A DNA stretch of 64,000 nt from Tritrichomonas musculus (Eukaryota; Parabasalia; Tritrichomonadida; Tritrichomonadidae), in NCBI GenBank assembly GCA_039105265.1, contig JAPFFF010000035.1, forward strand, positions 558,001 through 622,000. The letters run 5' to 3'. The notes beneath the pieces are model-generated. The model did no database searches. It was not told where the DNA came from and saw only the letters and a program-made list of their open reading frames with translations. Positions 7,046 through 42,506 of this stretch are shown here, in pieces. A program made the translations under genes and the position numbers. Numbering within the stretch: position 1 is the stretch's first letter; every line of letters starts with the position of its first letter.

Positions 7046-8221
7046 TTAGAAAACGACTGCAGAAATGCCATCAATAATCTCTTCTTTAGAATGTGTAGCG
7101 GCAAGAGAAACAAGGACATTGAACTTGCCAAAGTCGTCTGGATTGATTTCACCGAATTTCTCTCTGAAGATAGAAAATACTTCGAGATATGTTTGAGAAA
7201 TTTTAGATGAACGATCATTCTTGATTTTGTCACAATTCTTTGGATCAACATATTTAACAAGCATGTCCAAAACTGTTTCAAGTCTCTCTGTCAGTGCCTT
7301 AAGACGAAGCATTTGAAGCTTGGCGCGAGCTCTGACTGACGGACTCGAATGTTCTGAGAGGAATTTGAGTGTCTTTTCAGTAGCTTCACGAGGAGTAACT
7401 GCTTTCAAGTCAGCTTTACGAACAGGCTTAGTTAAAATTCTCTTTGGCTTTCCAATGAATGTTGATAAAGATAATGATTGCATTGATTCATCTCCAAAAT
7501 AGCAAGCATGCGAGTTTTCTGTATTTTCTTTAAGATATAGGAAAAGTTCACCAATTGTTGCCTCTGGTTGTTCATCAATATAAGAGATGAAATAATTTGT
7601 AAATTCATTAGATAAATATGCTCCAATTTCTTCATCATAAATTGCAGCATATGATGATTCATCATCATTGGCAGCAGTAATAATTGCAAGGTTTGGTGCT
7701 GTTATATTTTCTCCAATTGATCCAGAGTAGCATGCTTCAATCATGAAAAGACATTGTTTATATAACTTGGATTCTGCAGCCTTGTCGAATGATTCGGCTA
7801 ATTTATCAACTAAAATTTCATCAAACATATCTGGTGTACCTAAAGTTCCGTATCCACCATGATTATCATAATAAATGAAAACATAATCATCACTTGAAGT
7901 TGGAAGTTTTGAAACTGCATCATAAAAAGCTTTTGAATTAACATCTTTACCTTTGAAATCAACTGCATCTGAACCTGGATAAACATTTATTTTATGATCT
8001 ACTGAATGGAATACTTGGCCTTGAAAAGGATTTTCTTTAACTGTTGCAATATCATCATAAGCATAAAGGCGAATATTTTTTGTAGTGAATCCACGTGCAA
8101 GTAATTGGCCGTAAATTGTAAAAATATCAGCTTGGTGACGATAATTCCAATAAGTGTTTGAACCTGCAAAAAGAACTGCAAATTGAGCTGACAATGCTAC
8201 TCCTATCAGGTAGAAGATCAT
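7046..8221 (-). CDS. Legumain-like cysteine peptidase (C13), copy 1
   Basis: A 391-aa secreted peptidase of clan CD, family C13 (asparaginyl endopeptidase-like). Residues 1-19 are a signal peptide (MIFYLIGVALSAQFAVLFAG), and the mature region begins with NYRHQAD. The catalytic dyad is visible: His121 in YYDNHGGYG and Cys164 in IEACYSGS. The C-terminal third (about 270-391) is helical and charged, as in legumain prodomains. In trichomonads such enzymes are lysosomal or secreted and are linked to host-protein degradation and adherence (family knowledge). Copy 2 at 22914-24089 is about 94-95% identical. Homology extends about 45 bp past the stop and weakly into the promoter (TTGAAAATTGAATGA). 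The ATG at 8221 is real and no competing start is needed. Confidence 0.9.
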   Translation of the reverse strand: MIFYLIGVALSAQFAVLFAGSNTYWNYRHQADIFTIYGQLLARGFTTKNIRLYAYDDIATVKENPFQGQVFHSVDHKINVYPGSDAVDFKGKDVNSKAFYDAVSKLPTSSDDYVFIYYDNHGGYGTLGTPDMFDEILVDKLAESFDKAAESKLYKQCLFMIEACYSGSIGENITAPNLAIITAANDDESSYAAIYDEEIGAYLSNEFTNYFISYIDEQPEATIGELFLYLKENTENSHACYFGDESMQSLSLSTFIGKPKRILTKPVRKADLKAVTPREATEKTLKFLSEHSSPSVRARAKLQMLRLKALTERLETVLDMLVKYVDPKNCDKIKNDRSSKISQTYLEVFSIFREKFGEINPDDFGKFNVLVSLAATHSKEEIIDGISAVVF

Positions 8222-15978: not shown

Positions 15979-17322
15979 ATGAGTAAATATTCAATAGAAA
16001 GAACAGCAGTCAATGAATTACAAACTTCTTGGATAACAAATACGAGAGAAAAATTGTTAGTAAATGATGCAATTACATCAGAATACTATTTAAGAGCATA
16101 TGACTATCGTTCACAATGTCATGCTTTACATTATTTACTTCATCCGCATGATTTTTCTAATAGAAAAATTGCAAAATTATTAGGCGTTGACCATAAATCG
16201 TTTGAAAAACAGCTCTCGCTTCCATTAGAATCCCGTCTTAATGGTCGTCCTGTTATTTTAACCAAAGAAGAGAAGGTTTCTCTATTTGAAATCATTAACA
16301 GTTACTTAGAAAAAGGTATAAAACCTACCTTATATGATGCTTTACAACTTACAATTGAAAATTTTCACAAATCATTATCACCAGATACGTTAAGGACTTA
16401 TATAATGGAATCTGGTTACTATAGAATCATCAAGGGAGACCCTATTGACGAGAATCGTTATAATGTGAGCGATGAAAATATGGAAAATTATTTCATTGAA
16501 TTAAAAAAAGCTGTTGATGGTGTGCCAGCCTCGTTGGTATATAATATGGACGAGGCTGGCCAAGATGAGTACGTCGACGAGCATTCCATGAAGGTGATTG
16601 TCAAATCAGATTATCAAGGAGAAGTAACCAACATTCCTGTTAGAAGAGAATCGAAAAGAGCAACGTTGATACATTGCATTTGCAATGACGGGACCTACAC
16701 AAAACCCCTCCTAATAATTCCGCGTAAAACGGTAGATAGTTTAATTCTAAAACGCCTAACATTCTCAAATTTATATATCAAGCACCAAACGAAAGGTTTT
16801 GCAAACACTGACTTAATAAGAAATTGGCTAGAAACCATTTTTTTCCCAGAGATATCTAGAAAATGGGAACTTGAGCACCAGAGGACTGGCTATACAGGGA
16901 ACGTTATACTTATTCTAGATGGAATGTCAGCGCATTCAAAAGCTTTAAGCTTCTATAATTTGCAAGAGTATCATCTTCAGCTTGTTTATCTCGTTCCTCA
17001 CTCCTCACATCTGGCTCAGCCACTCGATTTAGTTGTTTTCTCAATTCAAAAACTCTTTACTACTCGTCGCAAAATATCTGATCCACTTACAACGCAAGTT
17101 GATAAGTTAAGATTAATTATTAAAGGGCTGCAGCAAGCGTCTACAACTGAAAACATCATTTCGGCATTTCAATCAGCTGGAATTTTCCATCTAATTCCAC
17201 CAAAGCAAACAATCAATTTCAACAATTTTATGCCGACATGTTTGGTCATAAAAGAAAACTCAAGGTACTATAAAGGTGACAAATATTTAATTACAGATGA
17301 AAATTACAGGTTAAATTTATAA
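15979..17322 (+). CDS. DDE transposase (DD35D)
   Basis: A 447-aa intact frame starting at an ATG. Residues 55-130 form a helix-turn-helix region (FSNRKIAKLLGVDHKSFEKQ), then an N-terminal linker. The catalytic triad is visible: Asp191 in YNMDEAGQ, Asp314 in LILDGMSAHS and Asp350 in SSHLAQPLDLVVF. The last two are 35 residues apart as in pogo/Tigger-like enzymes (DDE_1). It would bind the inverted repeats at 15806-15863 and 19341-19401 and cut and paste the element into TA. No stops or shifts interrupt it, in contrast to the other DDE relics here (14477-14940, 21100-22264), which belong to different subfamilies by their motifs. Confidence 0.9.
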   Translation: MSKYSIERTAVNELQTSWITNTREKLLVNDAITSEYYLRAYDYRSQCHALHYLLHPHDFSNRKIAKLLGVDHKSFEKQLSLPLESRLNGRPVILTKEEKVSLFEIINSYLEKGIKPTLYDALQLTIENFHKSLSPDTLRTYIMESGYYRIIKGDPIDENRYNVSDENMENYFIELKKAVDGVPASLVYNMDEAGQDEYVDEHSMKVIVKSDYQGEVTNIPVRRESKRATLIHCICNDGTYTKPLLIIPRKTVDSLILKRLTFSNLYIKHQTKGFANTDLIRNWLETIFFPEISRKWELEHQRTGYTGNVILILDGMSAHSKALSFYNLQEYHLQLVYLVPHSSHLAQPLDLVVFSIQKLFTTRRKISDPLTTQVDKLRLIIKGLQQASTTENIISAFQSAGIFHLIPPKQTINFNNFMPTCLVIKENSRYYKGDKYLITDENYRLNL

Positions 17323-22913: not shown

Positions 22914-24089
22914 TTAGAAAACGACTGCAGAAATACCATCAATAATCTCTTCTTTAGAATGTGTAGCGGCAAGAGAAACAAGGACATTGAACTTGCCAAA
23001 GTCGTCTGGATTGATTTCACCGAATTTCTCTCTGAAGATAGAAAATACTTCGAGATATGTTTGAGAAATTTTAGATGAACGATCATTCTTGATTTTGTCA
23101 CAATTCTTTGGATCAACATATTTAACAAGTATGTCCAAAACTGTTTCAAGTCTCTCTGTCAGTGCCTTAAGACGAAGCATTTGAAGCTTGGCGCGAGCTC
23201 TGACTGACGGACTCGAATGTTCTGAGAGGAATTTGAGTGTCTTTTCAGTAGCTTCGCGAGAGGTAGCTGTTTTCAAGTCAGCTTTACGAACAGGCTTAGT
23301 TAAAATTCTCTTTGGCTTTCCAATGAATGTTGATATTGATAATGATTGCATTGATTCATCTCCAAAATAGCAAGCATGCGAATGTTCAGTATTATTTTTA
23401 AGATATAGGAAAACTTCACCAATTGTTGCCTCTGGTTGTTCATCAATATAAGAGATGAAATAATTTGTAAATTCATTAGATAGAAATGCGCCAAGTTCTT
23501 CATCGTAAACAGCTGCAAATGATTCTTCTTTATCATTGGCAGCAGTAATAATTGCAAGATTTGGTGCTGTTATATTTTCTCCAATTGATCCAGAGTAGCA
23601 TGCTTCAATCATGAAAAGACATTGTTTATATAACTTGGATTCTGCAGCCTTGTCGAATGATTCGGCTAATTTATCAACTAAAATTTCATCAAACATATCT
23701 GGTGTGCCTAAAGTTCCGTATCCACCATGATCATCATAATAAATGAAAACATAATCATCACTTGATGTTGGAAGCTTTGAAACTGCATCATAAAAAGCTT
23801 TTGAATTAATATCTTTACCTTTGAAATCAACTGCATCTGAACCTGGATAAACATTTATTTTATGATCTATTGAATGGAATACTTGACCTTGATAAGGATT
23901 TTCTTTAACTGTTGCAATATCATCATAAGCATAAAGGTGAATATTTTTTGTAGTGAATCCACGTGCAAGTAATTGGCCGTAAATTGTAAAAATATCAGCT
24001 TGGTGACGATAATTCCAATAAGTGTTTGAACCTGCAAAAAGAACTGCAAATTGAGCTGACAATGCTACTCCTATCAGGTAGAAGATCAT
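22914..24089 (-). CDS. Legumain-like cysteine peptidase (C13), copy 2
   Basis: A 391-aa paralogue of 7046-8221 with the same signal peptide and the catalytic His121 (YYDDHGGYG) and Cys164 (EACYSGS). About 21 residues differ, many of them in residues 195-260 (for example KEESFAAVYDEELGAF against DDESSYAAIYDEEIGAY), while long blocks on both sides are nearly identical even in DNA. A TCATT initiator lies 14-18 nt before the ATG; copy 1 lacks an equally good one because its 5' flank diverges right at the ATG. Both copies look functional. They lie 15.9 kb apart in the same orientation, with transposons between. Confidence 0.9.
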   Translation of the reverse strand: MIFYLIGVALSAQFAVLFAGSNTYWNYRHQADIFTIYGQLLARGFTTKNIHLYAYDDIATVKENPYQGQVFHSIDHKINVYPGSDAVDFKGKDINSKAFYDAVSKLPTSSDDYVFIYYDDHGGYGTLGTPDMFDEILVDKLAESFDKAAESKLYKQCLFMIEACYSGSIGENITAPNLAIITAANDKEESFAAVYDEELGAFLSNEFTNYFISYIDEQPEATIGEVFLYLKNNTEHSHACYFGDESMQSLSISTFIGKPKRILTKPVRKADLKTATSREATEKTLKFLSEHSSPSVRARAKLQMLRLKALTERLETVLDILVKYVDPKNCDKIKNDRSSKISQTYLEVFSIFREKFGEINPDDFGKFNVLVSLAATHSKEEIIDGISAVVF

Positions 24090-26112: not shown

Positions 26113-29107
26113 TCAATCCTTTATTGAATTAAGTAAAATTTGCTCAATATCTAAACGATCTTCTTGCTTTGCTAGATTAATGCAGCTTTTACAAGTAACT
26201 CTAATTTTGGAATTCCATAAAATTTTTTCAACTGAAACAACATAAACTACTGTTATCATTGAAAACTTCATAAAAAAAGTTGAAAAAAAAAAATGTTTTC
26301 ATGTCTTATGTCAATCTTGCGGAATGAAATTAGATATTTAATGAGTTCAATATTTTTAGATTCAACTGCTAGGTGCAATAAACTATCATAAATCATACCA
26401 AATTTAGAATTCCATGAAAATTTATATGTTTTAAAATACAATAAAAAAAACTTTTATTTGTAATTTCATTAAAAAAAACAAAATTTAAAAATATTTTGGG
26501 ATTTGAGCGAAATCATATCACATGAAATAATGTACTTGGCAATATCAAAATAACCTAATTTGCAGGCAACATGCAATATTGTATTATAAATATTCTTATT
26601 GGAATTCCATGAATAATTAATGCTTTTATAAAACATAATAAAACTTTTTAATATGAAATTATATAAACTTAAAGAAAAAGTAAAATATTCTTTGCTTTGA
26701 TATCAACTTCATTTAATGAAACAAGATACTTGACAAGTTCAACATTAAATGATTCAACTGCATAATGTAAAATTGTCTCAAAAATTACTTAAATTTTGGA
26801 ATTCTATGAATTTATTGATTACTTGAAATTGAATAAAAAAATAATCAATTAAAAAAACTTCGTTAAAAAAAGAATAAATAAACAATCGTTTTAGCTTGCA
26901 TATCAATCTTGTTTAACGAGATAAGATATTTTACAAGATCAATATTTCCAGATCTACAGGCATAATGCAATATTGTTGCATAAAATTCTATTATTTTTTG
27001 AAATTCCATTTAAAATTCAATGAATTGAAATATTATGAAATTTTTTTTTTAAAAAACTTTATTAAAAAAATATAAATAAACCGCTTTTTGGCTGACATCA
27101 ATTTTATCAAGTGAAATAATATATTTAACAATATCAAGGTTTCCTAACTTACATGCAAAATGCAATAATGTTTCATAAAAAAAAATTGATTTTGAAACAT
27201 CATCAAATCCAATTTGATTGAAACACTATGAAATCATGTAAATGGAACTTTGTAAAGAAACAAAACAATAAAAACAGTTTTTGTTGTTATATCAATCTTG
27301 TCCAATGATATAAGATATTTGACCAAATAAATATTCTTTGATTGACATGCACAATGCAATAATGTAAAATTAGAAAAATTAGATTTTTTTGAATTCCATA
27401 AAAAAAACAAATTGAAACGTAATTAATTACAACTTAATTGAAATCTCATAAAAAAAAGAATAAAAAGGAATTGATTTAGACGTAACATCAATCTTATTCA
27501 GCGACATAAGTTTTTTAACAAGATAAATGTTTCCTGATTCACATGCATAATGCAAATTGTTATAATAAATCTTTAGAATATTAAAATTCCATGAATAAAA
27601 TCAAGAATTAAAAACGAAATAAAGGAAAAAAAGGAGGAACTTCATAAAAAAAATATTCAGTAAAAATTGTTTCTGCATCAATTTCGAATACATCTAATGA
27701 TAAAAGATATTCGACAAGATGTAGATTTCCTGATTGGCATGCGTAATGCAATATTCCTTTAAAAACAAAATTGATTTTGGAATTCCATGAATTTTTAATA
27801 TTTATTTTAAACATAATTAATTATAATGATTAAAGACTTTATTCCTAGTATTAAGATCAATCTTGTTTAATGATATAAGATATTGAACAAGATCAAAGTT
27901 CCTCGATTCACATGCAATATGCAAAACTGTCTCAAAAATTTCATAGATTTTTGAATTCCATAAAATATTTTGAAAAAACATTATTTAAAAATAAAATGAT
28001 TTTTAAAATTTCATAAAAACAAAATAAATATAAAACATTCTTGGCATTTAAATCTATCTTATCCAGAGATATAATATATTTGAAAAGATCAACAGCATAA
28101 GTTAATTTGCTTGCAATGTGTAATATTGTATCATAAATATTTTGAATTTTGGAATTCCATAAAAACAATATAACTAATGAAACTGAATTTATAAAATTGA
28201 AAAGAAACTTTATTTATACTAAAAAAATAAATAAGAAATACTTGTTGCAGCGATATCAATTTTATCAAGTGAAACAAGATATTTTACAATGTCAAGATTT
28301 CCTTCTTCACAAGCAAAATGTAATAATGTTTTATTAATTTTAATGATTTTAAAATTTGATGAATTCATTGTTGATTCAAACATAATAAGATAATATATAT
28401 AACTTTGTTAAAATAAAATTAAAAATATTTTGAGCTGCAATATCGAATTTGTTCAGTGAAATAACATATTTGACAAGATCAAGATTCCCTGATTCACATA
28501 CATAATGCAATAATGTGTCAAAAATATTTTTAATTGATAAACATTATGAAAATAATTGATTTTTATAAATTGCATAAAAAAATATTTATAAATAAAACTT
28601 CATAAAAACTAAAAAATAAATAAACATTCTTTGATGGAATTTCAAACTTTCCTGTCGATATAAGATATTTAAACATATCAAGATCACCAGATATGGCTGC
28701 AAAATCTAATGCTGTATAATAAAAATCTATTATTTTTATGAAATTGCATAAAAAGTAATGATTAGAAATGTAATAAATAATCATTTATATCAAAACGTTA
28801 TAAAAAATACATAAAATAAAATTGATTTTGTTGCAATATCGAACTTATTTAAGGAAATAAAATATTTAACGAGTTCAAGGTTTCCTGACTGGCAAGCATA
28901 ATTAAACGAATTGAAATAAAATCATTTTTATTTTGAAATTCCATAAATATAATTAAATCAAAATCCCATAAAAAACAATCACGTAAAAAAATTTCATCAA
29001 AATAAATAAATATAAATGTTTTTAGCTTCAATTTCAAATTTATTCAAAGACATAAGATATTTAACAAGTTCAATATTACCTGATCTACAAGCATTATGAA
29101 ATATCGT
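26113..29107 (-). repeat. Array of 16 ankyrin-coding cassettes with spacers
   Basis: Downstream of the kinase-ankyrin gene, on the same strand, lie 16 cassettes with a period of about 196 bp. Each is one ankyrin repeat of the type TLLHYACESGNLDLVKYLIS then LDKIDI-x-x-K-N. Starts (high coordinate): 29107, 28909, 28715, 28516, 28329, 28129, 27930, 27757, 27561, 27365, 27171, 26976, 26776, 26582, 26384 and about 26190. Thirteen of the first fifteen are exactly 90 bp; two are 87 and 93. The last is degenerate and ends in a natural stop (LLNSIKD, stop at 26113). Spacers are 83-110 bp, AT-rich, contain stops, and share three motifs on the coding strand: RTT plus a T-rich tract at the 5' side, TATGAARTTT, and TATGGAATTCCAAAA. 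There is no GTAYGT donor or ACTAACACACAG acceptor. Whether the cassettes are exons, silent donors or decay products is open. Confidence 0.8.
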
Positions 29108-29195
29108 CATATAAAAAAATCATAATTTGGAATTCCATTAAATATTTTTCTCATTGAAATATTATTAAATTCTATAAAAAATAAAACTTTATAAA

Positions 29196-30386
29196 TCATG
29201 AAAAATTAAAAAAAACATTCTTTTCAGTTATATTAATCTTATCAAATGACATAAAAAACTTTACAAGTTTGAGATTTCCTGATCTACAAGCAGGAAACAA
29301 AATATTCCCTCCAAAAGACTTGATATATACGTTTTGTAAGTTATCATCACTTTCAGTGAGAACTGAAAACATTTCCATATAATATTCATTTATTCTTTTA
29401 TGACTTGCGATTATCTTTTTGAGTTCTTTGACACTTTCAGCATCGTTTTTATCATCCTTTGGCGATTCATTGATGGAAGAGTTTTCGAGGCATTTCAAAT
29501 ATTTTTCAATTTCTTCTTTGTCGACTTCTTCATTCAAGATAGAAAAGTCAGTTGACAACTTTTCAAATATATCATCAAAAGAAGGCCTTTCATCAGCTTT
29601 TTGACACCAACATTTCAGCAGAAGATCCTTCATTGACTCGCTGATTGAATCATCAAGAATTGGACGATCACCAGATTTCACTTTTTCAATGAATTCAGAA
29701 ACTGTTGTTGAATCATTTTCTATGACATATGGCACTTTTCCTGTGATGATTTCATACGCGAGAATTGCAAATGAATAAACATCAGTCCCTGGGCCAAAAA
29801 TATCTTTTCCTTCAAGTTTTTCTGGGGCCATGTAAAAAAATTCTTCAACTTTTTGATTCTTTGAAAAAATGTGCGGATAATAAAAGTCTGAAATTCGAGG
29901 ATAGAATTTTTCATCAATTAAAACGTTGTTTGGCTTTAAAAAGTGATTAAAAATGCTTTTCTGATGCAAGCATTTCATTGCAGATGAAATTCCAAGTAAA
30001 CAAATCATTTTTTTTGTGCCATTCCACTCATTAATGGCCTGATTTTGTCGTAATTTATAAAAAATTTGCTGTATGGATCCTTGTGGAAGGAATTCTGTGA
30101 GAATCGTTGGCTGAAGTAATGTTTGATCATTAAATGAATGGAAATTGATTCCATAAAATTTGGTAATAGCTGGATGATTTAGTTTCTGAAGGATTGCTGA
30201 TTGTCGCATTAGTCGCATTTGATCATCTCCTGTAAATACTTTTTGTGAATTAATTATTTTCGCTGCATATTTGCTTTTATCTTTGATTTTTTCAACTATG
30301 AATAGTGTCCCAAGTGCCCCTTCACCGAGATTTTGGCTGGTTAGTTCGTAATCAGATGTATTGAAGAAAATTCCTTCAAAATCCAT
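29196..30386 (-). CDS. Pseudokinase with one ankyrin repeat
   Basis: A 396-aa frame starting at a good ATG (MDFEGIFFNTSDYEL). The kinase fold covers residues 12-280: glycine loop GEGALGTLF, lysine in YAAKII, and YMAPEKL in place of APE. The catalytic loop reads IFNHFLKPNNVL, so HRD has become NHF, and DFG has become DFY. Loss of the catalytic Asp predicts a pseudokinase. An acidic linker with LEN-SS motifs follows (also found in the triple-kinase protein), then one ankyrin repeat (NILFPACRSGNLKLVKFFMS) and, a few codons into the AT-rich spacer, a stop. The same ankyrin type continues as the cassette array downstream, so this frame may be the first exon of a far longer protein. A TCATA initiator lies 10-14 nt before the ATG. 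Confidence 0.85.
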   Translation of the reverse strand: MDFEGIFFNTSDYELTSQNLGEGALGTLFIVEKIKDKSKYAAKIINSQKVFTGDDQMRLMRQSAILQKLNHPAITKFYGINFHSFNDQTLLQPTILTEFLPQGSIQQIFYKLRQNQAINEWNGTKKMICLLGISSAMKCLHQKSIFNHFLKPNNVLIDEKFYPRISDFYYPHIFSKNQKVEEFFYMAPEKLEGKDIFGPGTDVYSFAILAYEIITGKVPYVIENDSTTVSEFIEKVKSGDRPILDDSISESMKDLLLKCWCQKADERPSFDDIFEKLSTDFSILNEEVDKEEIEKYLKCLENSSINESPKDDKNDAESVKELKKIIASHKRINEYYMEMFSVLTESDDNLQNVYIKSFGGNILFPACRSGNLKLVKFFMSFDKINITEKNVFFNFS

Positions 30387-31237: not shown

Positions 31238-34203
31238 ATGATAGAGCAATCTTATTCCGATGAACCAAACCAAATTGAACAAACTCTCGTAATAAATGAG
31301 AAATCTGAGAATTTACCTCAGCAAACGATGGAAAACTATATTCAAGATAAGGAACTTCTTTATAACGCCATCCTCGAATTCATCGATTATCCCAATGACA
31401 ATTCTAACAATTCTGGCAGTGAATTATGCTTCTATTCGTTAACCAAAATCATCAAAAATCAACAAATTGAAAAAGATCGCGAAGAAATGCAAGAATTCCT
31501 ACAAATAATCAAAAGCATCATTGACAATCATCATCGTGACAATAACTTTTTACCGAAACTCGAAAAAATTTTCCAATATTATAAAAATCAAATCAAACAA
31601 ACCTTGTCAAATATTGAAATATACCATATTTTTGAGAGCAACAAGAAAGTTCTTCTTTATCTTTTACAAAATAATATTGTCACAATCACTGATTCCATTT
31701 ACAGTGAAATGATAAACAAAGTTGAATCAAACGGTAACCGTTACTGCTACTTTTTTTATCCAGAAATTGAGAACTTTGTTGGTGAAGAGAAAATGAAAGA
31801 CGTTAAAAATGAACTTTTATCAAAAGATCCCAATTTTTTTGATAATTATCAATACAAACGTAAAGAAGGTGAAAATGACACCTACATTTGTTCATTGATT
31901 CGAAAAGATTCAGTTGAAGAATTCATTTCTTATGTAACTCGAATGAATTTAGTTCTTTCTAGTAAAATTGAGCCTTCAATTTATGAGACGCACTCTTTCT
32001 TAATTGAGAACAATAAAACCACATTGTTCGAATATTCTGCATTTTTTGGTTCAATTCAAATCTGTCAATATTTACAAATGAGCAATGTGAAGCCAAAGCC
32101 GTCATTGTGGCTCTATTCAATTCATTCAAATAGCCCAGAGTTAATTCATTTCCTTGAATATCTCAACGTTGAACCACCAAGACTTTCTGGTAGTAAAAAA
32201 AATAATGATAAAAATGATGATTATTCAAGATGCTTCTCTGAGGCAATTAAATGTCATCACAATGAAATAGCTTTTTATATTACAAACAACTTTTTAACAC
32301 AAAAAGAAGGAAATGATGATTCAAAACAAAAAGAAGAAATGATCTTGAATAGTATTAAATATCATAATTATTGTCACTTTTCATCTGAAATTGTTTGTGA
32401 GATTGGTTTCTTTTATTTATGTCTTTACGGTTATCATAAACTTGTCAATCTTTTATTGAAAAAGAAAGAGAAAGAAATTGAATCAAAAATAATTTTAAAA
32501 ATTTTTTTTATTCTGTTTCAAATTAATTTTTTTTTGAATGAAATTTTAAATATTATTTTTTGTCTAATCAAACAACAATTCAAATGGCAGCTAATAATAA
32601 TGACATTGAAGTTATCTATTATTTGTTATCCAAAGAGAAAGAAATCAAGGAAGATTTTTTCCGTGAAAATAAAATAATTAAAAAAATATCAATCCCACCT
32701 TCAATAACAACGATTGAAGATTATGCTTTTGAAGGATGCACATCATTGACACAAATAGCAATATCATCATCTGTTACGTCAATTGGATATTGCGCTTTTA
32801 AAGGATGCAATTCATTAAGACAATTGTCAATTCCTTTGTCTGTTAAATCGATTGATAATTTAGCCTTTTCGAATTGTAAAACACTCAAAAAGTTGACAAT
32901 TCCATCGTCTGTAACTTCAATTAATGATAATCTTTTCGACGGATGTCGAAAATTAATGAATATATCTGTTCTTTCTTTTGTGTCTTCATTTGAAGATTTC
33001 GTATTTAGAGGCTGTTGTTCATTGACCAAAATTGTTGTTCCTTTTTCGGTTACTTCAATTGGAGACAAAACTTTTTATGGCTGTTCTTCATTGATAGAAA
33101 TATCAGTTCCTTCTTCTTTAAAGACGATTGGTGAATGTGCATTTAAAGGTTGTTCTTCATTGAAGCAATTTTTGATTCCACCATCACTAACATCAATTGG
33201 CTATTATGCTTTTGATGGTTGTTCTTCATTGACACAAATTACAATTCCGTCCTCAATAACATCAATTGGCGATGGCGTTTTTAAAGACTGTTCTTCATTG
33301 AAACAAATAGAAATTGAATCATCATTGACAACAATTGGTGATTTTGCTTTTAAAGGCTGCTCAGTATTAACAAAAATACCAAATTCTTCATCTTTGAGAT
33401 CAATTGGCGACGGTTCTTTCAAAGATTGCTGTTCATTGACTGAAATATCAATTGAAAATCTAACAATTATTCGAAATAACGTTTTCAACGGATGCACATC
33501 ACTAGGAAAGATCTCCATCCCATCGTCTGTGACATCAATTGGCGATTGCTCTTTCAAAAAATGCTCTTCATTAAAGCAGCTGTCAATTCCATCATCTGTG
33601 ACATCGATTGGATATTCAGCTTTTGAAGATTGTTCTTCATTGAATGAAATAAAAATTGAAGCACATATAACATCTTTAAAAAACAGCGTTTTTGGAAGCT
33701 GTGCATCATTAGAAGAAGTGATAATTCCACCATCTGTGACTTCAATTGATGAATTTGCATTCAGCAAATGTTCATCTTTAAAATTTGTGACAATTCCTTC
33801 GTCTGTAACTTCGATTGGCGGCTCCGCTTTTTTCTGTTGTTCCGAACTGACAGAAATAGATATTCCATCGTCTGTGACTTCAATTGGTACAGATGCTTTT
33901 GCAGAATGTAAATCATTATTGAAAGTGTCTTTATCTTCTTCTTTAACTTTGCTTGAAAAGGAAATTTTCAAAAATTGCTATAGTTTAGTGAAGATAGAAA
34001 TTCCTTCTTCTGTAACTACAATTGAAATTAGTGCTTTCAAAGGATGCAGGGAACTGACAGATGTAACAATTCCATCATCTGTAAGATCAATTAAAAATAT
34101 GGCTTTTAAAGGATGCTCCTCACTAAATGAAATATCAATACCTATCTTGGCTCTAACCGACAGACATACATTTCCGAAAAAAACAAAAGTTTTAAGATTT
34201 TAA
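31238..34203 (+). CDS. DUF3447-ankyrin-BspA LRR protein, split by a spacer
   Basis: The first part (31238 to about 32488) opens at ATG 31238; the longer frame begins at TTG. It encodes the trichomonad DUF3447 domain with the family signatures DNHHRDNNF, KEGENDTYICSLIRKDSVEE, SIYETHSFLI and IKCHHNEIAF, then half an ankyrin unit ending KKKEKEIESK. A roughly 70-bp AT-rich spacer with poor coding quality follows. From about 32565 a second frame resumes at the matching place of the ankyrin unit (QTTIQMAANNNDIEVIYYLL), followed by 21 BspA/TpLRR repeats of 23 residues (for example SVTSIGYCAFKGCNSL) to 34203. The second frame has no ATG near its beginning. The same domain order is encoded without interruption at 42966-45443, so one spliced gene is plausible. 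BspA proteins are expected to be surface or binding proteins. Confidence 0.7.
32489..32560 (+). other. Spacer inside the ankyrin unit (candidate intron)
   Basis: T-rich sequence between two halves of one gene, starting after IESK and ending before NQTT. It contains no GTAYGT or ACTAACACACAG. It sits at the same point of the ankyrin repeat as the spacers of the arrays at 26.1-29.1 kb and 40.4-42.0 kb. Exact edges cannot be set from sequence alone. Confidence 0.45.
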
Positions 34204-37101: not shown

Positions 37102-39013
37102 GCTTGTTTGGTTTACACCAAAATTGAAAGATTCAATGAGATAACGAACAAGTTGAAAATCACCTATTTTGCATTCAATATGCAAGATTGTTTCATAAAA
37201 ATATATAAAAAATTTTATTAAAAAATTTAATATTTAAAATCGAAATGCTATTAAACTATTTAATAATAACATCTTGGGCTTTTCTATCAATTGTATCATC
37301 TGAAAGAAGATTTCGAACAAGTATGGTATTACTTGTTAAATATTTAATGTTGTATTCGAACAAGTGGACGTATTATTATAATTATTTATGATTAAAACAA
37401 ATAAATATTTATTATATCTCTTTCTTGAATGTTGTATTCATCAAATTTCAAGAGGTAGCTAACAAGTTCATAATTCCCAGATTTACAAGCATAAAATAAT
37501 AATGTTCTATAAATGATTAAAATGGTAGAATATTCTGGAAAATTATGAATATAGGGCAGCACGAAAAAATGATCAAAACCATAAATAAAAAAAAGAGTTG
37601 CGTATTTTTTTCAAGGAAGAATTTTAGTAATTATGAGACAAAATTTTACAAAATATAAATTTTTTTCATGAAAAAAATTTTTGACGCAGAAATTTCGATC
37701 ACAAAAAGTGAGAATGAAAAATTTTCCGAAATTTTTTTTGAACAAAAGAATTAAATCTATAAATGAAAGAATTTATTCAATGATAAAATTTTTATAACAG
37801 CAAGCAAAAAAATAAAAAAAATAAAAAAAATGCTGTTATATAAAAGATAAAAGAAAAAAGTCGTGTTCAATTTTGTAAAAAATAATATGTATCTTTATTG
37901 ATCATTTTTACTTATCCAATATTAATGAAGTATTTTATGTTATCAATTGATTTATCGCATAAATCTTCATTGTTTTCATTATTTTCAAGTTCATTAAGAA
38001 TAGCAATAATATTATATGATAAAATTCTTTTCAAATCTTTTCCATAAATTGTATTAAATGATAAGCATATTATTGCAGGCAGAATAAAAAACAAATTAAT
38101 TTCATTATCCAAAATTAATGTATTTCAATGGTCACAAATAATTTGAATTATATTCAAAGATATAATTGCTTTTAATGATAATTTTATTTTAATATTCAGT
38201 AAACACGATATAAAAAATTGGTTACTAAGAATTTTGTTTTGTTTCTTCACAAAAATTTTTGTTATTTTGATAAAATTTTTAATCAAAATTTTTTAAAAAT
38301 TTTTGTTTATGAAATTTTTTAATTTGAATTCAAAAAATTTTGTTTTTAATTTATATGAGCAACAAGTAATCACATAAATTTACCCAATTATATATATATG
38401 ACCACATATTTTTAATAAATAATAATAAAATAATATAATTCAACATTTTAAATAATTCTCAAATATCTTGTCTAAAATATAAATTTCTGTGTTTGAAGCA
38501 TATAATGTTAAAGAAAAAGATAATAAATAAAAAAACTAATGAAAAAAGAGACTAATAAAACAATATAAACATTCATGTTCATAATTGCAAGATTACAAAT
38601 TATTTTTCTCGAATAGGCTTTGAATAAAAAAAATATTTTTTACATTATAATATTTTTATTCATGAGTTTTTTCTTTTCAGATTTAACTAAATTTTTTCCA
38701 TCAAAAACCGTTTTCGGTAAAAATTTTTTTGCATTGAAAATTGATCATTTTTTCTGCGATGAAAAATTTTTAAAATAACAAAAATTTATTTTTTTCTGTC
38801 AAAAATGATCGCAATTTTCAAATATTTTTATTTATTTCGGGCAAAAAAGATCATTTTTTCGTGCCAGCCCTATATATTTTATAACTTTTTTCATTTTAGA
38901 ATTGCATTAAAACATAAGAAAGATTAAATATCTTTTGCTCTCTTATCAATACCTCGTAACGAGATTAAATATTTAACAAGTTCATTATTTGATGATTCAT
39001 GGGCATAATGCAA
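37102..39013 (-). pseudogene. Decayed ankyrin cassette array
   Basis: Four minus-strand ankyrin units remain. They are at about 39013-38924 (LHYAHESSNNELVKYLISLR), 37505-37416 (TLLFYACKSGNYELVSYLLK), about 37358-37263 (partial, NTILVRNLLSDDTIDRKAQD) and 37191-37102 (TILHIECKIGDFQLVRYLIE). Their wording is that of the 26-29 kb array but spacing is irregular (80 bp to 1.4 kb). The first unit's 5' end is replaced by an A-run at 39013-39038. Long stretches between hold nothing recognisable. No kinase or DUF3447 start is attached. Confidence 0.55.
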
Positions 39014-39320: not shown

Positions 39321-40553
39321 ATGTGTTCTCCGGAATATTTGAACATGATGAAGCATATTAATGAAAAAATTACAAATTTCCTTGAAGATGAAGCCAATTC
39401 AGAAGAATGTTTTTTAATTCTCGAAGATCAATTTAAATTTAATAATCCGAAAATAAGTGATACCAAGCATGATTTTTTGTCATTGCTACATTTTATTTGT
39501 AAGATTGGAAATAATCACCATCGTTGTCCAAATTTTTTCTGCAAAATCGAAAGAATTTTGCTAATTTTCAAAGAAGATATCAAAAAATCTTTTTCAAATT
39601 CAGAAATATTCAATATTTATAGGAGCAACAAAAGGATTCTTTTATTTCTCATTGAACAACAAATAATTGTTATTGATGAATATATCGTTAAAAAAATTAC
39701 AAAGACAAGTAAATACATAGAAGCCAAATATCCACAGTATTTTCAACCAGAAATAAAGACATTCATAAATGAAAATTGGTTCCCAAAGTATAGTCCATTA
39801 TGTTCTGAATTGAATGGAAATAATTGGGTTAGAGATCTAAAGAAAGAATTACCTGAAAACTTTTATGAAAAACGAAAGGAAGGTGAAAATGACAATCAAA
39901 TCTGTGAATTGATTCGAAAAGACATGGTTACAGAATTTATTGCATACATTAATCTGAATTCTATTTCACTTAATGCAAAAATACAACCATCAATTTATGA
40001 AACAAATCAATTTTTAATTAAAAATAAGAGTTTGTCATTGATTGAATATGCTGTATTTTTGGGTTCAATTCAAGTATTTAATTATTTAAGACTTGAAGGT
40101 GTCAAATTGACAAAATCGTTGTGGATTTTGGCCATTCATGGTCATAATTCAGAAATAATTCATTTTCTCGAAGACAATCATGTTAAAATAGAGGATAAGT
40201 CATACAAACAAGTCTTTCATGAATCAATCAAATGCCACCACAACGACATTGCAAATTACTTTATAAACAACTTCTTACAAAATGATGAAGAAAATTCACA
40301 GGATACATTCAATCAAAGTCTCAGATATTACAATTTTATCTTTCTGAAAAAAGCTTTCATTAATAAATCTTCTTTTTTCAACTTGTGCAAGTACGATTAT
40401 TCTGCATTTGCTGCAGACCTTTTGAAAAACAAAGATATTGATGTCAACAAAAAAGAAATTTTTAATTTTTTTACTAATATAATTTCATATGATATTGATT
40501 TAATTTTGCTGAAACCATTCAAAATCATATCTTTCAATGAAATTTTACAATAA
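39321..40553 (+). CDS. DUF3447-ankyrin protein, first frame
   Basis: A 410-aa frame starting at ATG (MCSPEYLNMMKHINEK). DUF3447 signatures are all present: GNNHHRCPNF, KRKEGENDNQICELIRKDMV, SIYETNQFLIKNK, EYAVFLGSIQVFNYLRLEGV and IKCHHNDIAN. The last coding part is one degenerate ankyrin unit (FFNLCKYDYSAFAADLLKNK then DIDVNKKEI), after which the frame runs into AT-rich spacer and stops. The next ankyrin cassette begins at 40562, so the true protein may continue through the cassettes to 42506. DUF3447 proteins are a large trichomonad family of unknown role. Confidence 0.8.
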   Translation: MCSPEYLNMMKHINEKITNFLEDEANSEECFLILEDQFKFNNPKISDTKHDFLSLLHFICKIGNNHHRCPNFFCKIERILLIFKEDIKKSFSNSEIFNIYRSNKRILLFLIEQQIIVIDEYIVKKITKTSKYIEAKYPQYFQPEIKTFINENWFPKYSPLCSELNGNNWVRDLKKELPENFYEKRKEGENDNQICELIRKDMVTEFIAYINLNSISLNAKIQPSIYETNQFLIKNKSLSLIEYAVFLGSIQVFNYLRLEGVKLTKSLWILAIHGHNSEIIHFLEDNHVKIEDKSYKQVFHESIKCHHNDIANYFINNFLQNDEENSQDTFNQSLRYYNFIFLKKAFINKSSFFNLCKYDYSAFAADLLKNKDIDVNKKEIFNFFTNIISYDIDLILLKPFKIISFNEILQ

Positions 40554-41951
40554 ATTTATAAAACGGTTTTATTTCTGGCAATTGAAAAAGAGAACATCGA
40601 AATCGTTAAACTTTTATTAACAAATGACAGACTTAGAATTAATCTTATGTATAAGAAGTCTTTCACTGATATTCAAAATTAAATTTTTCAATGATATTCA
40701 AAATCATGTTTTTTAATGAAATTCAAAATCATATCTTTCAATTTGATTCAAAATCATATCTTTCAATTCCATTTATAATCATGTCTTTCAATGAAATTTT
40801 AATTTAATAATTATTTATCAAACAGCATTATATTTGGCTGTTGAAAAAGAAAACATTGAAATTGTCAAATTATTATTAAAGAATAACAAACTTAATATTA
40901 ATCTTGGATATATTTCTCTTAATTTTTTTATAAAATTTAGAAAAATATTTTTCAATTACATTGTATATATATAATATTTTCAATTCCATTGAAAATCATA
41001 CCTTTCAATAACATTCAAAATCATGTCTTTAAATTACATTAAAAATCATTTTTTTCAATTTCATTTAAAATCATACCTTTCAATAGAATTCAAAATCATG
41101 TCTTTCAATTGCATTATAAATCATATCTTTCAATTGCATTACAAATCTTATCATTCAATTCAATTTTAAAACTTAAAATTCAAAATCACATCTTTTGATG
41201 AAATTCAAAATCATATCTTTAGATGAAATTACAATAAAATATAATTTTATATGACTGCATTATATTTGGCAATTGAAAAAGAGAACACTGAAATCGTTAA
41301 AATTTTATTAACCAATGACAATCTTGAAATTAATTATATATATATTTTCCTTTTCTTTTTATACAATTCAAAATATTATTTTGAATAAAATTCAAAGTCA
41401 CATATTTCAATAAAATTTAAATTAGTTCCTTTGATGCCATTCAAAATCATGTCTTTCAATGATATTTTAAATTAGGTTCTTTGATAACATTCAAAATCAT
41501 GCTTTTCAATGAAATTTTAAATCATATTTTTTGTTATAATTTAAAAATATACCATTCAACAATGTTCGAAATAATATTTTTCAATGAAATTTTGATATAA
41601 TATTAATTTATAAGACAGCATTATATTTGGCAGTTGAAAAAGAAAGCATTGAAATCGTGAAACTTTTATTAACGAATGACAATCTTGACATCAATAATAT
41701 CAATATTCTTCTTAATTTTTTATAAAATTCAAAATCATTTTTCAATTGCATTCAAAAATATATCTTTCAATTGCATTCAAAAATAATTCTTTCAATAAAA
41801 TTTTAAAAAAAAAATTCAATTACATTTAAAATCATGTTTTTCAATTATATTTCAAATCATATCTTTCAATTACATTCAAAATCATATTTTTTTTAATGAA
41901 ATTCAAAATCATACCTTTCAATGAAATTTTGAATTAATAGTAATTTATAAG
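40554..41951 (+). repeat. Ankyrin cassettes with satellite-like spacers
   Basis: Four ankyrin cassettes, all opening T-x-L-x-L-A: 40562-40654 (TVLFLAIEKENIEIVKLLLT), 40822-40912 (TALYLAVEKENIEIVKLLLK), 41254-41344 and 41615-41705. A fifth opens the final frame at 41952. Spacers grow from 95 to 341 bp. Those after 40654 consist largely of 20-25-nt repeats such as TTCAAAATCATATCTTTCAA. Each spacer ends in TTTAT plus three bases (TTTATAAG before two cassettes) and begins after D/R/E-I-N. Canonical trichomonad splice motifs are absent. Cassettes have no internal stops; spacers have many. Confidence 0.75.
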
Positions 41952-42506
41952 ACAGCTTTACATTTGGCAGTTGAAAAAGAGAACATTGAAATCATTAAAC
42001 TTTTTTTAAAGAATGACAAACTTGACATCAATTTTGCAAGTAAGATTGATAATGGGAACATAATAATAGAAATGAGTCCTCTTCAATTTGCCATCGATTA
42101 TACACCAGATAGAATTGTTGAATTATTCTTTTTACATGAGTTTCAAAGCCAATCAGATAAAATAGATGTAAATAAAAGATCAAAAAAGAGAATAATTGGC
42201 CAAAAAGGTGAAGTTTTTGAAAAAACAGTTCTATATATGTCTATTGAAAAAAATGACACAAATACAATTAAATCACTTTTATCAAGAGCAGACATTGATA
42301 TAAATGAAAAATCATTCCATTATTCAGATGACAATCGAATTGAAGAAAAAACGGCATTACATCTTGCCGTTGAAAATGAAGATATTGAAATTGTCAAACT
42401 TTTATTAGAAAAGAAAGAAATTGATATTAATATTCAAGATTTGCAAGGTAGAAAACCAATTGATTGTACATCAGATAGTGAAATCAGACAATTGCTTTCA
42501 CAATGA
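41952..42506 (+). CDS. Ankyrin-repeat C-terminal frame
   Basis: The open frame runs from the fifth cassette (TALHLAVEKENIEIIKLFLK) uninterrupted to the stop at 42506. It includes two further ankyrin units (TVLYMSIEKNDTNTIKSLLS and TALHLAVENEDIEIVKLLLE) and ends RKPIDCTSDSEIRQLLSQ, a typical ankyrin C-cap. Inside this frame the ankyrin junctions are continuous (DINEKSFHYSDDNRIEEKTA), showing what the spacer-split junctions should look like when joined. The first ATG is not obviously a start, so it reads as the last exon of the 39321 gene. Confidence 0.7.
   Translation, partial: TALHLAVEKENIEIIKLFLKNDKLDINFASKIDNGNIIIEMSPLQFAIDYTPDRIVELFFLHEFQSQSDKIDVNKRSKKRIIGQKGEVFEKTVLYMSIEKNDTNTIKSLLSRADIDINEKSFHYSDDNRIEEKTALHLAVENEDIEIVKLLLEKKEIDINIQDLQGRKPIDCTSDSEIRQLLSQ

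Follow-up and report, generated by a model that had tools for sequence, protein, structure and literature searches.

A kinase–ankyrin array of Tritrichomonas musculus with putative introns that lack GT-AG ends

Organisation of the array

Tritrichomonas musculus is a gut commensal of laboratory mice that shapes mouse gut immunity, and trichomonads are described as intron-poor. We analysed 64,000 nucleotides (nt) of its genome, called the window here (positions 558,001 to 622,000 of contig JAPFFF010000035.1, assembly GCA_039105265.1), which hold an array of ankyrin cassettes behind a kinase-like open reading frame (ORF). Reading of the window sequence confirmed its position on the minus strand at 26113..30386. 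The initial annotation had counted sixteen cassettes after a kinase gene; what follows are fifteen ankyrin cassettes and a C-terminal exon, and the first ankyrin cassette (29306-29217) lies inside the kinase-like ORF. Fourteen of the fifteen following cassettes, not thirteen, are 90 nt long and one has 93 nt (28129-28037). The natural stop ascribed to the last cassette is present as the TGA (26115-26113) of the C-terminal exon.

The elements are listed below, the spacers being putative introns. Joined with linker boundaries of three residues, 16 exons are all multiples of three; a four-residue linker keeps the frame too, and all cut points are therefore uncertain by a few nt. Exons 2-6 and 8-16 follow a 33-codon convention.

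29217..30386, minus: exon 1, kinase-like domain (PF00069) and first ankyrin cassette, from profile match and ORF reading
29117..29216, minus: spacer 1, starting with GTTTTTTTT
29018..29116, minus: exon 2, one ankyrin repeat
28922..29017, minus: spacer 2
28823..28921, minus: exon 3, ankyrin repeat
28725..28822, minus: spacer 3
28626..28724, minus: exon 4, ankyrin repeat
28526..28625, minus: spacer 4
28427..28525, minus: exon 5, ankyrin repeat
28339..28426, minus: spacer 5
28240..28338, minus: exon 6, ankyrin repeat
28139..28239, minus: spacer 6
28037..28138, minus: exon 7, ankyrin repeat with one extra codon (the 93-nt cassette)
27940..28036, minus: spacer 7
27841..27939, minus: exon 8, ankyrin repeat
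27767..27840, minus: spacer 8, the sole non-RTT start among 15 measured
27668..27766, minus: exon 9, ankyrin repeat
27571..27667, minus: spacer 9
27472..27570, minus: exon 10, ankyrin repeat
27375..27471, minus: spacer 10
27276..27374, minus: exon 11, ankyrin repeat
27181..27275, minus: spacer 11
27082..27180, minus: exon 12, ankyrin repeat
26986..27081, minus: spacer 12
26887..26985, minus: exon 13, ankyrin repeat
26786..26886, minus: spacer 13
26687..26785, minus: exon 14, ankyrin repeat
26592..26686, minus: spacer 14
26493..26591, minus: exon 15, ankyrin repeat
26394..26492, minus: spacer 15
26295..26393, minus: exon 16, ankyrin repeat
26197..26294, minus: spacer 16, preceding the C-terminal exon
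26113..26196, minus: exon 17, C-terminal exon ending in SCINLAKQEDRLDIEQILLNSIKD-stop

The ORF of exon 1, read from 30386, matches PF00069 at 125.6 bits, and its unspliced frame stays open to a stop at 29198-29196. Its HRD and DFG motifs are degenerate (FNHFLKPNN and DFY). By eye, exon 17 belongs with the tail exons that other arrays have (described below), and its 3' boundary signal is weak.

The fifteen inter-cassette spacers, measured from xKN to TxLH, are 83-110 nt long and contain stops, as annotated: 108 of 1,539 codons over three frames (7.0%). At this rate, the chance of 480 stop-free codons is about 7e-16. The GC content is 28% in the window cassettes and 14% in the window spacers.

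Coding selection on the ankyrin cassettes

A protein search of the genome gave 157 matches (150 of 4,035 candidates were scored), and 26 stretches and some smaller loci were fetched from the same genome for comparison. These include family A (L043-L046 and L048), family B (C20, C15, C43, C59 and others; period about 188) and L041, whose two strands both carry divergent relatives of the window array. Three cassettes, one each from the window, family A and family B, all scored above the curated cut-off for Pfam ankyrin models. The window and A-type cassettes reached 30.7 and 29.3 bits against PF13606 (cut-off 22.3) and 27.7 and 25.6 against PF00023 (cut-off 21.1); the B-type cassette reached 37.9 against PF00023.

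Cassettes were collected by a DNA-profile search, for which an open frame is not required. None of the 208 near-full cassettes has a stop or frameshift (66/66 in A, 126/126 in B and 16/16 in the window). Of the sixteen in the window, fifteen belong to the main array and one lies at 38.9 kb; cassette 16 matched partially, yet is open. One B match (the 127th) that runs off its locus and the partial matches (1 A, 11 B, 4 window) were left unjudged.

The ratio of nonsynonymous to synonymous substitution rates (dN/dS) was calculated by NG86 over distinct cassettes (14 in the window, 10 in L041, 30 in A and 100 in B). For whole cassettes it was 0.36, 0.18, 0.44 and 0.71, respectively, and for the core codons 0.33, 0.15, 0.26 and 0.46. 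The core codons are under purifying selection, in agreement with the annotated selection of the cassettes as protein. To call the differences between them largely synonymous is too strong: the proportions of synonymous and nonsynonymous differences among the 14 distinct window cassettes are 0.56 and 0.29, and differences at codon positions 1, 2 and 3 amount to 0.36, 0.19 and 0.44.

These values bear on the proposal that the array is a tandem amplification in decay, a pseudogene array without product. The degenerate kinase motifs of the window, the lack of a head or tail in view in L011, the fragment-like look of some clusters of two or three units and the broken appearance of the locus at 37.1-39.0 kb speak for it. 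Free stops and a dN/dS near 1 had been named as the marks of such an array; here the cassettes are unbroken, dN/dS is well under 1 in the core codons (0.15-0.46), and spacer lengths change freely while cassette lengths do not. Decay is contradicted by the intact frames and by dN/dS, and we consider it very improbable.

Boundaries of the spacers

Boundary counts are based on 191 of 216 units (15 in the window, 58 in A, 108 in B and 10 in L041). Twenty units repeating the window (L039, L040) and five single ones (L001, L007, L018, L027, L028) were excluded. The annotated RTT start is found in 14/15 window spacers and likewise in 58/58 of A, 104/108 of B and 10/10 of L041. A 3' signal, TTTWT-NNN-AC (in family B mostly TTTAAT-NNN-AC), is located at positions -9 to -4 before TxLH in 14/15, 57/58, 103/108 and 8/10 cases, respectively. 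The two motifs TATGAARTTT and TATGGAATTCCAAAA, reported earlier, can be recognised in degenerate versions; of the exact 16-mer TATGGAATTCCAAAAT the genome has six copies, two of them inside the window array. Spacer lengths range from 73 to 126 nt, with all three classes modulo 3 in each family.

Uninterrupted ankyrin arrays of the same sequence type (L047; P0004, P0009, P0023, the kinase domain preceding the repeats in these three proteins) have no spacers. The residue pair matching the 3' signal, a hydrophobic-aromatic (or Phe-Asn) pair that follows the spacers, is absent from all 44 linkers examined in them (35 with 34-residue and 9 with 33-residue spacing; 31 from L047, of which the fetched stretch does not include a kinase).

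Consistent GT-AG ends are lacking, as annotated. With a linker of two to five residues, a frame-preserving GT-AG pair is possible in 1/15 window spacers, 0/58 of A, 0/108 of B and 1/10 of L041 (2/191), and 55/58 A and 94/108 B spacers are devoid of any GT. Because the in-frame pair is missing in 189/191, the spacers are not GT-AG introns, and a spliceosomal GT-AG identity was rejected. An intron of the Trichomonas type was rejected as well, there being no CTAAC branch site fused to the 3' end; the strict Trichomonas pattern GTATGTN{10,40}ACTAACACACAG had 0 matches in the genome. The count for CTAAC/T at any spacer position is 2/15 (window), 0/58 (A), 96/108 (B, mid-spacer in those inspected) and 0/10 (L041). 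Frame-keeping AT-AC ends are possible in 7/15, 51/58, 6/108 and 4/10 spacers, respectively, and are thus not uniform. By eye, no intron was seen at the start of the poly(A) polymerase gene in L049, the one gene start viewed of four genome matches.

Candidates for U2 small nuclear RNA (six matches above cut-off) have the usual GUAGUA motif, and those for U6 (two matches at 42 bits versus a cut-off of 44) the usual ACAGAG motif. The Rfam search for U1 gave no match in the genome, and none in control genomes either, and is uninformative. With such candidates, an ordinary spliceosome tolerant of non-GT-AG ends and of a loose branch point, e.g. the UCUAAC of family B, might remove the spacers, and CTAAC/T in 96/108 B spacers would suit it. 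The spacers do not match what the U2 and U6 candidates should recognise: 189/191 are without an in-frame GT-AG, no single branch motif is common to all, and the fused CTAAC-AG end of Trichomonas introns, described in the available part of PMC12316389, is missing. In T. vaginalis, moving the branch site by 2 or 7 nt abolished splicing (an experiment cited in the accessible text of PMC6679479), which makes a loose ordinary pathway less likely in that species. This variant of an intron reading seems doubtful to us.

Pairing between the spacer ends was compared with mononucleotide shuffles. The mean end-duplex energy was -6.7 versus -3.4 in A, -3.7 versus -3.5 in the window, -2.7 versus -3.3 in L041 and -3.25 versus -3.27 in B (57 spacers, six loci). 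As it exceeds shuffles in A alone, an RNA structure that pairs the ends was rejected as a general rule. Exact hexamer repeats at the 5' and 3' ends occur in 46/47 A spacers and 6/15 window spacers (about one expected), and in 0/98 of B and 0/10 of L041; direct repeats at both ends were rejected as a rule, too.

The near-identical hexamers flanking 46/47 A spacers could also point to removal at the DNA level, in the manner of ciliate internal eliminated sequences or by recombination between short flanking repeats. Such flanks are missing in B and L041, the assembly holds the interrupted form, and the B junction pattern found no excised copy. We know of no case of such removal in trichomonads and hold it to be extremely improbable here.

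Related arrays in the genome

According to the protein search, the genome holds uninterrupted ankyrin arrays (e.g. C3, with a frame of 2,098 amino acids, aa) and many short-frame arrays; the interrupted anatomy of the window and its boundary signals recur in unrelated ankyrin genes. All five family A arrays begin with a kinase ORF as head, continue with cassettes whose period is mostly 189 nt, and end in a C-terminal exon that reads TAIEIS...FLTKQIKK-stop or a variant. The kinase heads of L044 and L045 are cut by the fetched edge, yet open, and the cassettes detected in L046 form four groups separated by longer gaps. Twelve family B arrays have four or more units. Ten of them have a head, which is either an ORF of 392-435 aa whose end lies about 95 nt ahead of the first cassette or a start with ATG-AGC-AAC; eleven have a tail exon that follows the pattern K[TA]AID.AR..NH.EIVDL. 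Among the 17 arrays of this size (5 A, 12 B), 15 have a head, 16 a tail exon and 15 both (including the two A heads that are cut by the fetched edge). Both ends are present in the L010 and L023 arrays. Clusters of two or three units show ends in L015 and L021 and none in L010, L017, L022 (minus strand) and L023; others run off their locus. L015 (three units), L016 and L020 have their own ATG start, and in L015 and L016 the tail exon continues into a long downstream ORF with, by eye in L016, a kinase-like beginning.

These ends bear on silent donor cassettes, the proposal that only the first repeat, in the kinase ORF, is expressed and that the remainder serves as templates for gene conversion. 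The first cassette of L043 equals a later one but for one residue, as conversion would have it. In 9/10 arrays the divergence of cassettes shows no significant correlation with that of spacers (p 0.073-0.858, with L023 at 0.073; L012 p=0.001), and in 2/10 arrays (L044 0.037, L048 0.031) adjacent units resemble each other more than remote ones do. Units may therefore have undergone shuffling or conversion, but in these tests some array sets merge two clusters and the resolution is low. Donors need no conserved C-terminal exon, 3' boundary signal or phase-0 junctions, and divergence among the window cassettes is strong (mean 0.35). Since 15/17 arrays carry their own head and tail exon, and L015 (three units), L016 and L020 their own ATG, silent donors fit poorly and are improbable.

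Of 295 database matches, the 120 listed include kinase-ankyrin proteins whose repeats are not interrupted (P0004, P0009, P0023); they show how the product of the window would be expected to look if its exons were joined. An intronless copy of family B was not found, its junction pattern giving 0 matches in the genome, a neutral result. At G000:C12:4458650-4484551, family A-type matches recur in steps of about 12.6 kb with identical internal spacing and are probably a recent duplication of whole genes.

Repeat units inside the spacers

The A and B spacers contain two or three copies of a unit, YAT-NNN-ATTYAA, about 24-27 nt apart, in which the triplet is variable and the surroundings are nearly fixed. 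A spacers of 73 and 126 nt, two large departures from 99 nt, each differ by about one unit. The first variable exon codon sits after TTTWT (TTTAAT in B), as the triplet does in the spacer units. The B junction GGAATTTAACTCGAACATTTAAT-NNN-ACGGC has 254 occurrences (control 0), many of them tandem and so not independent, with no stop among 100 listed codons. The idea that the NNN triplet acts as codon or anticodon outside exons was dropped, as the unit length shifts the frame.

At 40650-41942 of the window, in L037 and L042, and genome-wide, there are also minisatellites whose units of 22-27 nt combine a hypervariable triplet with a rigid frame. A 22-nt relative, TTTTAT-NNN-ATTTCAACAAATA, has 1,082 exact copies genome-wide, against 0 for a reversed control. 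The triplet in L037 and L042 reaches 1.5-1.9 bits per base. The search pattern itself fixed the AT and ATTTC next to it, but the unselected TTTT in front and the A behind are also low at most positions, with 0.2-0.95 bits. These unit arrays, on the minus strand from 1714 (L037) and 1775 (L042), run straight into an ORF for a coiled-coil-like repeat protein and are possibly a 5' intron or promoter array.

Interpretation and comparison with known introns

In the reading we favour, with a probability of roughly 0.7, the window array would be one multi-exon gene of T. musculus whose spacers are introns removed without GT-AG ends. It fits best because the cassettes are unbroken, the spacers fall into all classes modulo 3, most arrays have head and tail exons and boundary motifs are shared by unrelated arrays. 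Of the three options offered by the initial annotation, this retains the introns, as a class without the trichomonad GT-AG signals, whereas silent donors and decay fit poorly. Exon 1 would provide the kinase-like domain and the first ankyrin repeat, fifteen exons one repeat each, and the last exon would close the solenoid, all predicted junctions being in phase 0 and placed in the ankyrin linker. The array would be transcribed and the spacers taken out of the RNA by a non-GT-AG route, with RTT and a T-tract as putative 5' signals and TTTWT-NNN-AC at the start of the next exon. Growth may have proceeded by tandem duplication and conversion of exon-plus-intron units.

Related arrays would diversify mainly at codons expected to face ankyrin targets, as might suit a diversified binder. 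We take codons 5, 8, 9, 19 and 20, from the fold, to be ankyrin binding positions, and the exact positions randomised in designed ankyrin repeat proteins (DARPins) are likewise assumed. At these five codons dN/dS is 2.25 in A and 2.08 in B, an excess partly selected by construction since they were picked by the entropy profile of A and B units themselves (for A, 35 distinct units drawn from four of its five loci, with spacers of 99 nt; for B, 54 distinct units with spacers of 98 nt). In the window (0.55) and L041 (0.35), outside the codon choice, the five codons do not exceed 1. The randomised positions of DARPins form a potential binding surface, according to the part of PMC8683736 available to us, and variation there, as here, lies on one face of a rigid ankyrin frame. 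Unlike in DARPins, it is natural here and spread over tandem exons, and the target-facing codons are predicted from the fold.

Both features of these codons, their selection by construction and the values below 1 outside it, weigh against the favoured reading, and so do several others. Given its degenerate HRD and DFG motifs, the window kinase is probably a pseudokinase. L011 (nine units) has neither head nor tail, the second L015 array is without a head, and some clusters of two or three units lack both. The joined protein of these arrays had no close match among the 120 listed of 295 and of 3,897 database matches. No branch motif is common to all spacers, and neither end pairing nor terminal repeats extend to all families. 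The T. musculus genome paper gives only 2,500 genes with introns (5.66%; PMC11978803); the words ankyrin and splic- are absent from its main text.

Euglenid nonconventional and diplonemid noncanonical introns offer a near parallel (PMC4770533, PMC6221363 and PMC12621601). Like the spacers, they have no conserved GT-AG and prefer a 5' purine, their borders are sometimes blurred by direct repeats, and those of diplonemids occur beside a functional spliceosome. The non-canonical, variable borders of the euglenid type are seen in our spacers, too. In euglenid and diplonemid introns base pairing joins the ends, and most of them have CAG/CTG at +4 to +6 and -8 to -6. Here, by contrast, pairing stands above shuffles in A alone, so that only this family shows a structure joining the ends, and +4 to +6 is T/A-rich; the spacers also differ in their regular positions, one per ankyrin repeat, and in their shared sequence signals. 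The type A and B introns of T. vaginalis and T. stableri, as far as described in the accessible part of PMC12316389, are likewise parabasalid and short, and some lie in kinase and ankyrin genes. Their ends are GT-AG, with a 5' end of the GYAYGY type and the branch site merged into the 3' end; 63 of them have been confirmed in T. vaginalis, whereas the spacers are without GT-AG and number 16 in one gene. For T. foetus, de novo prediction is reported in the chromosome paper to have given genes of no more than two exons, and the species is called intron-poor in a review. No description of introns of the present kind in Tritrichomonas was found among the papers listed by searches of open-licence PubMed Central literature.

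A more far-reaching version appears rather unlikely. T. musculus might possess a lineage-specific intron class, excised without GT-AG recognition and perhaps without a spliceosome, that grew from a 22-27 nt minisatellite unit and yields combinatorial kinase-fused ankyrin binders, loosely antibody-like or like variable lymphocyte receptors. A combinatorial binder repertoire could arise through exon choice and unit shuffling, since both flanks of every ankyrin exon would be in phase 0.

If the spacers are spliced, gene models based on ORFs or GT-AG would end near the first repeat of such kinase and ankyrin genes, exon counts would be too low, and a large non-GT-AG intron class would exist in a lineage outside the euglenozoans. 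The fast-evolving codons would then also point to a large group of recognition proteins of a protist that shapes mouse gut immunity.

Further genes and features in the window

A second gene of the same kind lies on the plus strand, with a possible third one upstream of it.

39321..42506, plus: second gene, 379-aa N-terminal exon, ankyrin exons, five putative introns and C-terminal ankyrin exon
40458-40553, plus: its intron 1
40653-40812, plus: its intron 2
40912-41244, plus: its intron 3
41344-41605, plus: its intron 4
41705-41942, plus: its intron 5
31238..34203, plus: possible third gene, by eye, in which one such intron separates an ankyrin-type exon from one leading into BspA-like leucine-rich repeats

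The five introns of the second gene (96-333 nt, largely ~25-nt units CAAT-NNN-ATTCAAAATCATA) have [AT]TTTAT-NNN-AC in 5/5 and ATT at the 5' end in 4/5. The class had been described as short introns; with lengths up to 333 nt, this does not always hold. In the possible third gene the frame changes near 32490-32580; its boundaries were set by eye and the 3' signal is absent. At 37132-39013 (minus), lone ankyrin cassettes lie scattered in broken surroundings, likely a decayed relative of the window array.

Two nearly identical ORFs of 391 aa, at 7046-8221 and 22914-24089 (minus), are about 16 kb apart and are candidates for legumain-type cysteine peptidases by resemblance. An ORF of 447 aa at 15979-17322 (plus) is likewise a candidate DDE-type transposase.

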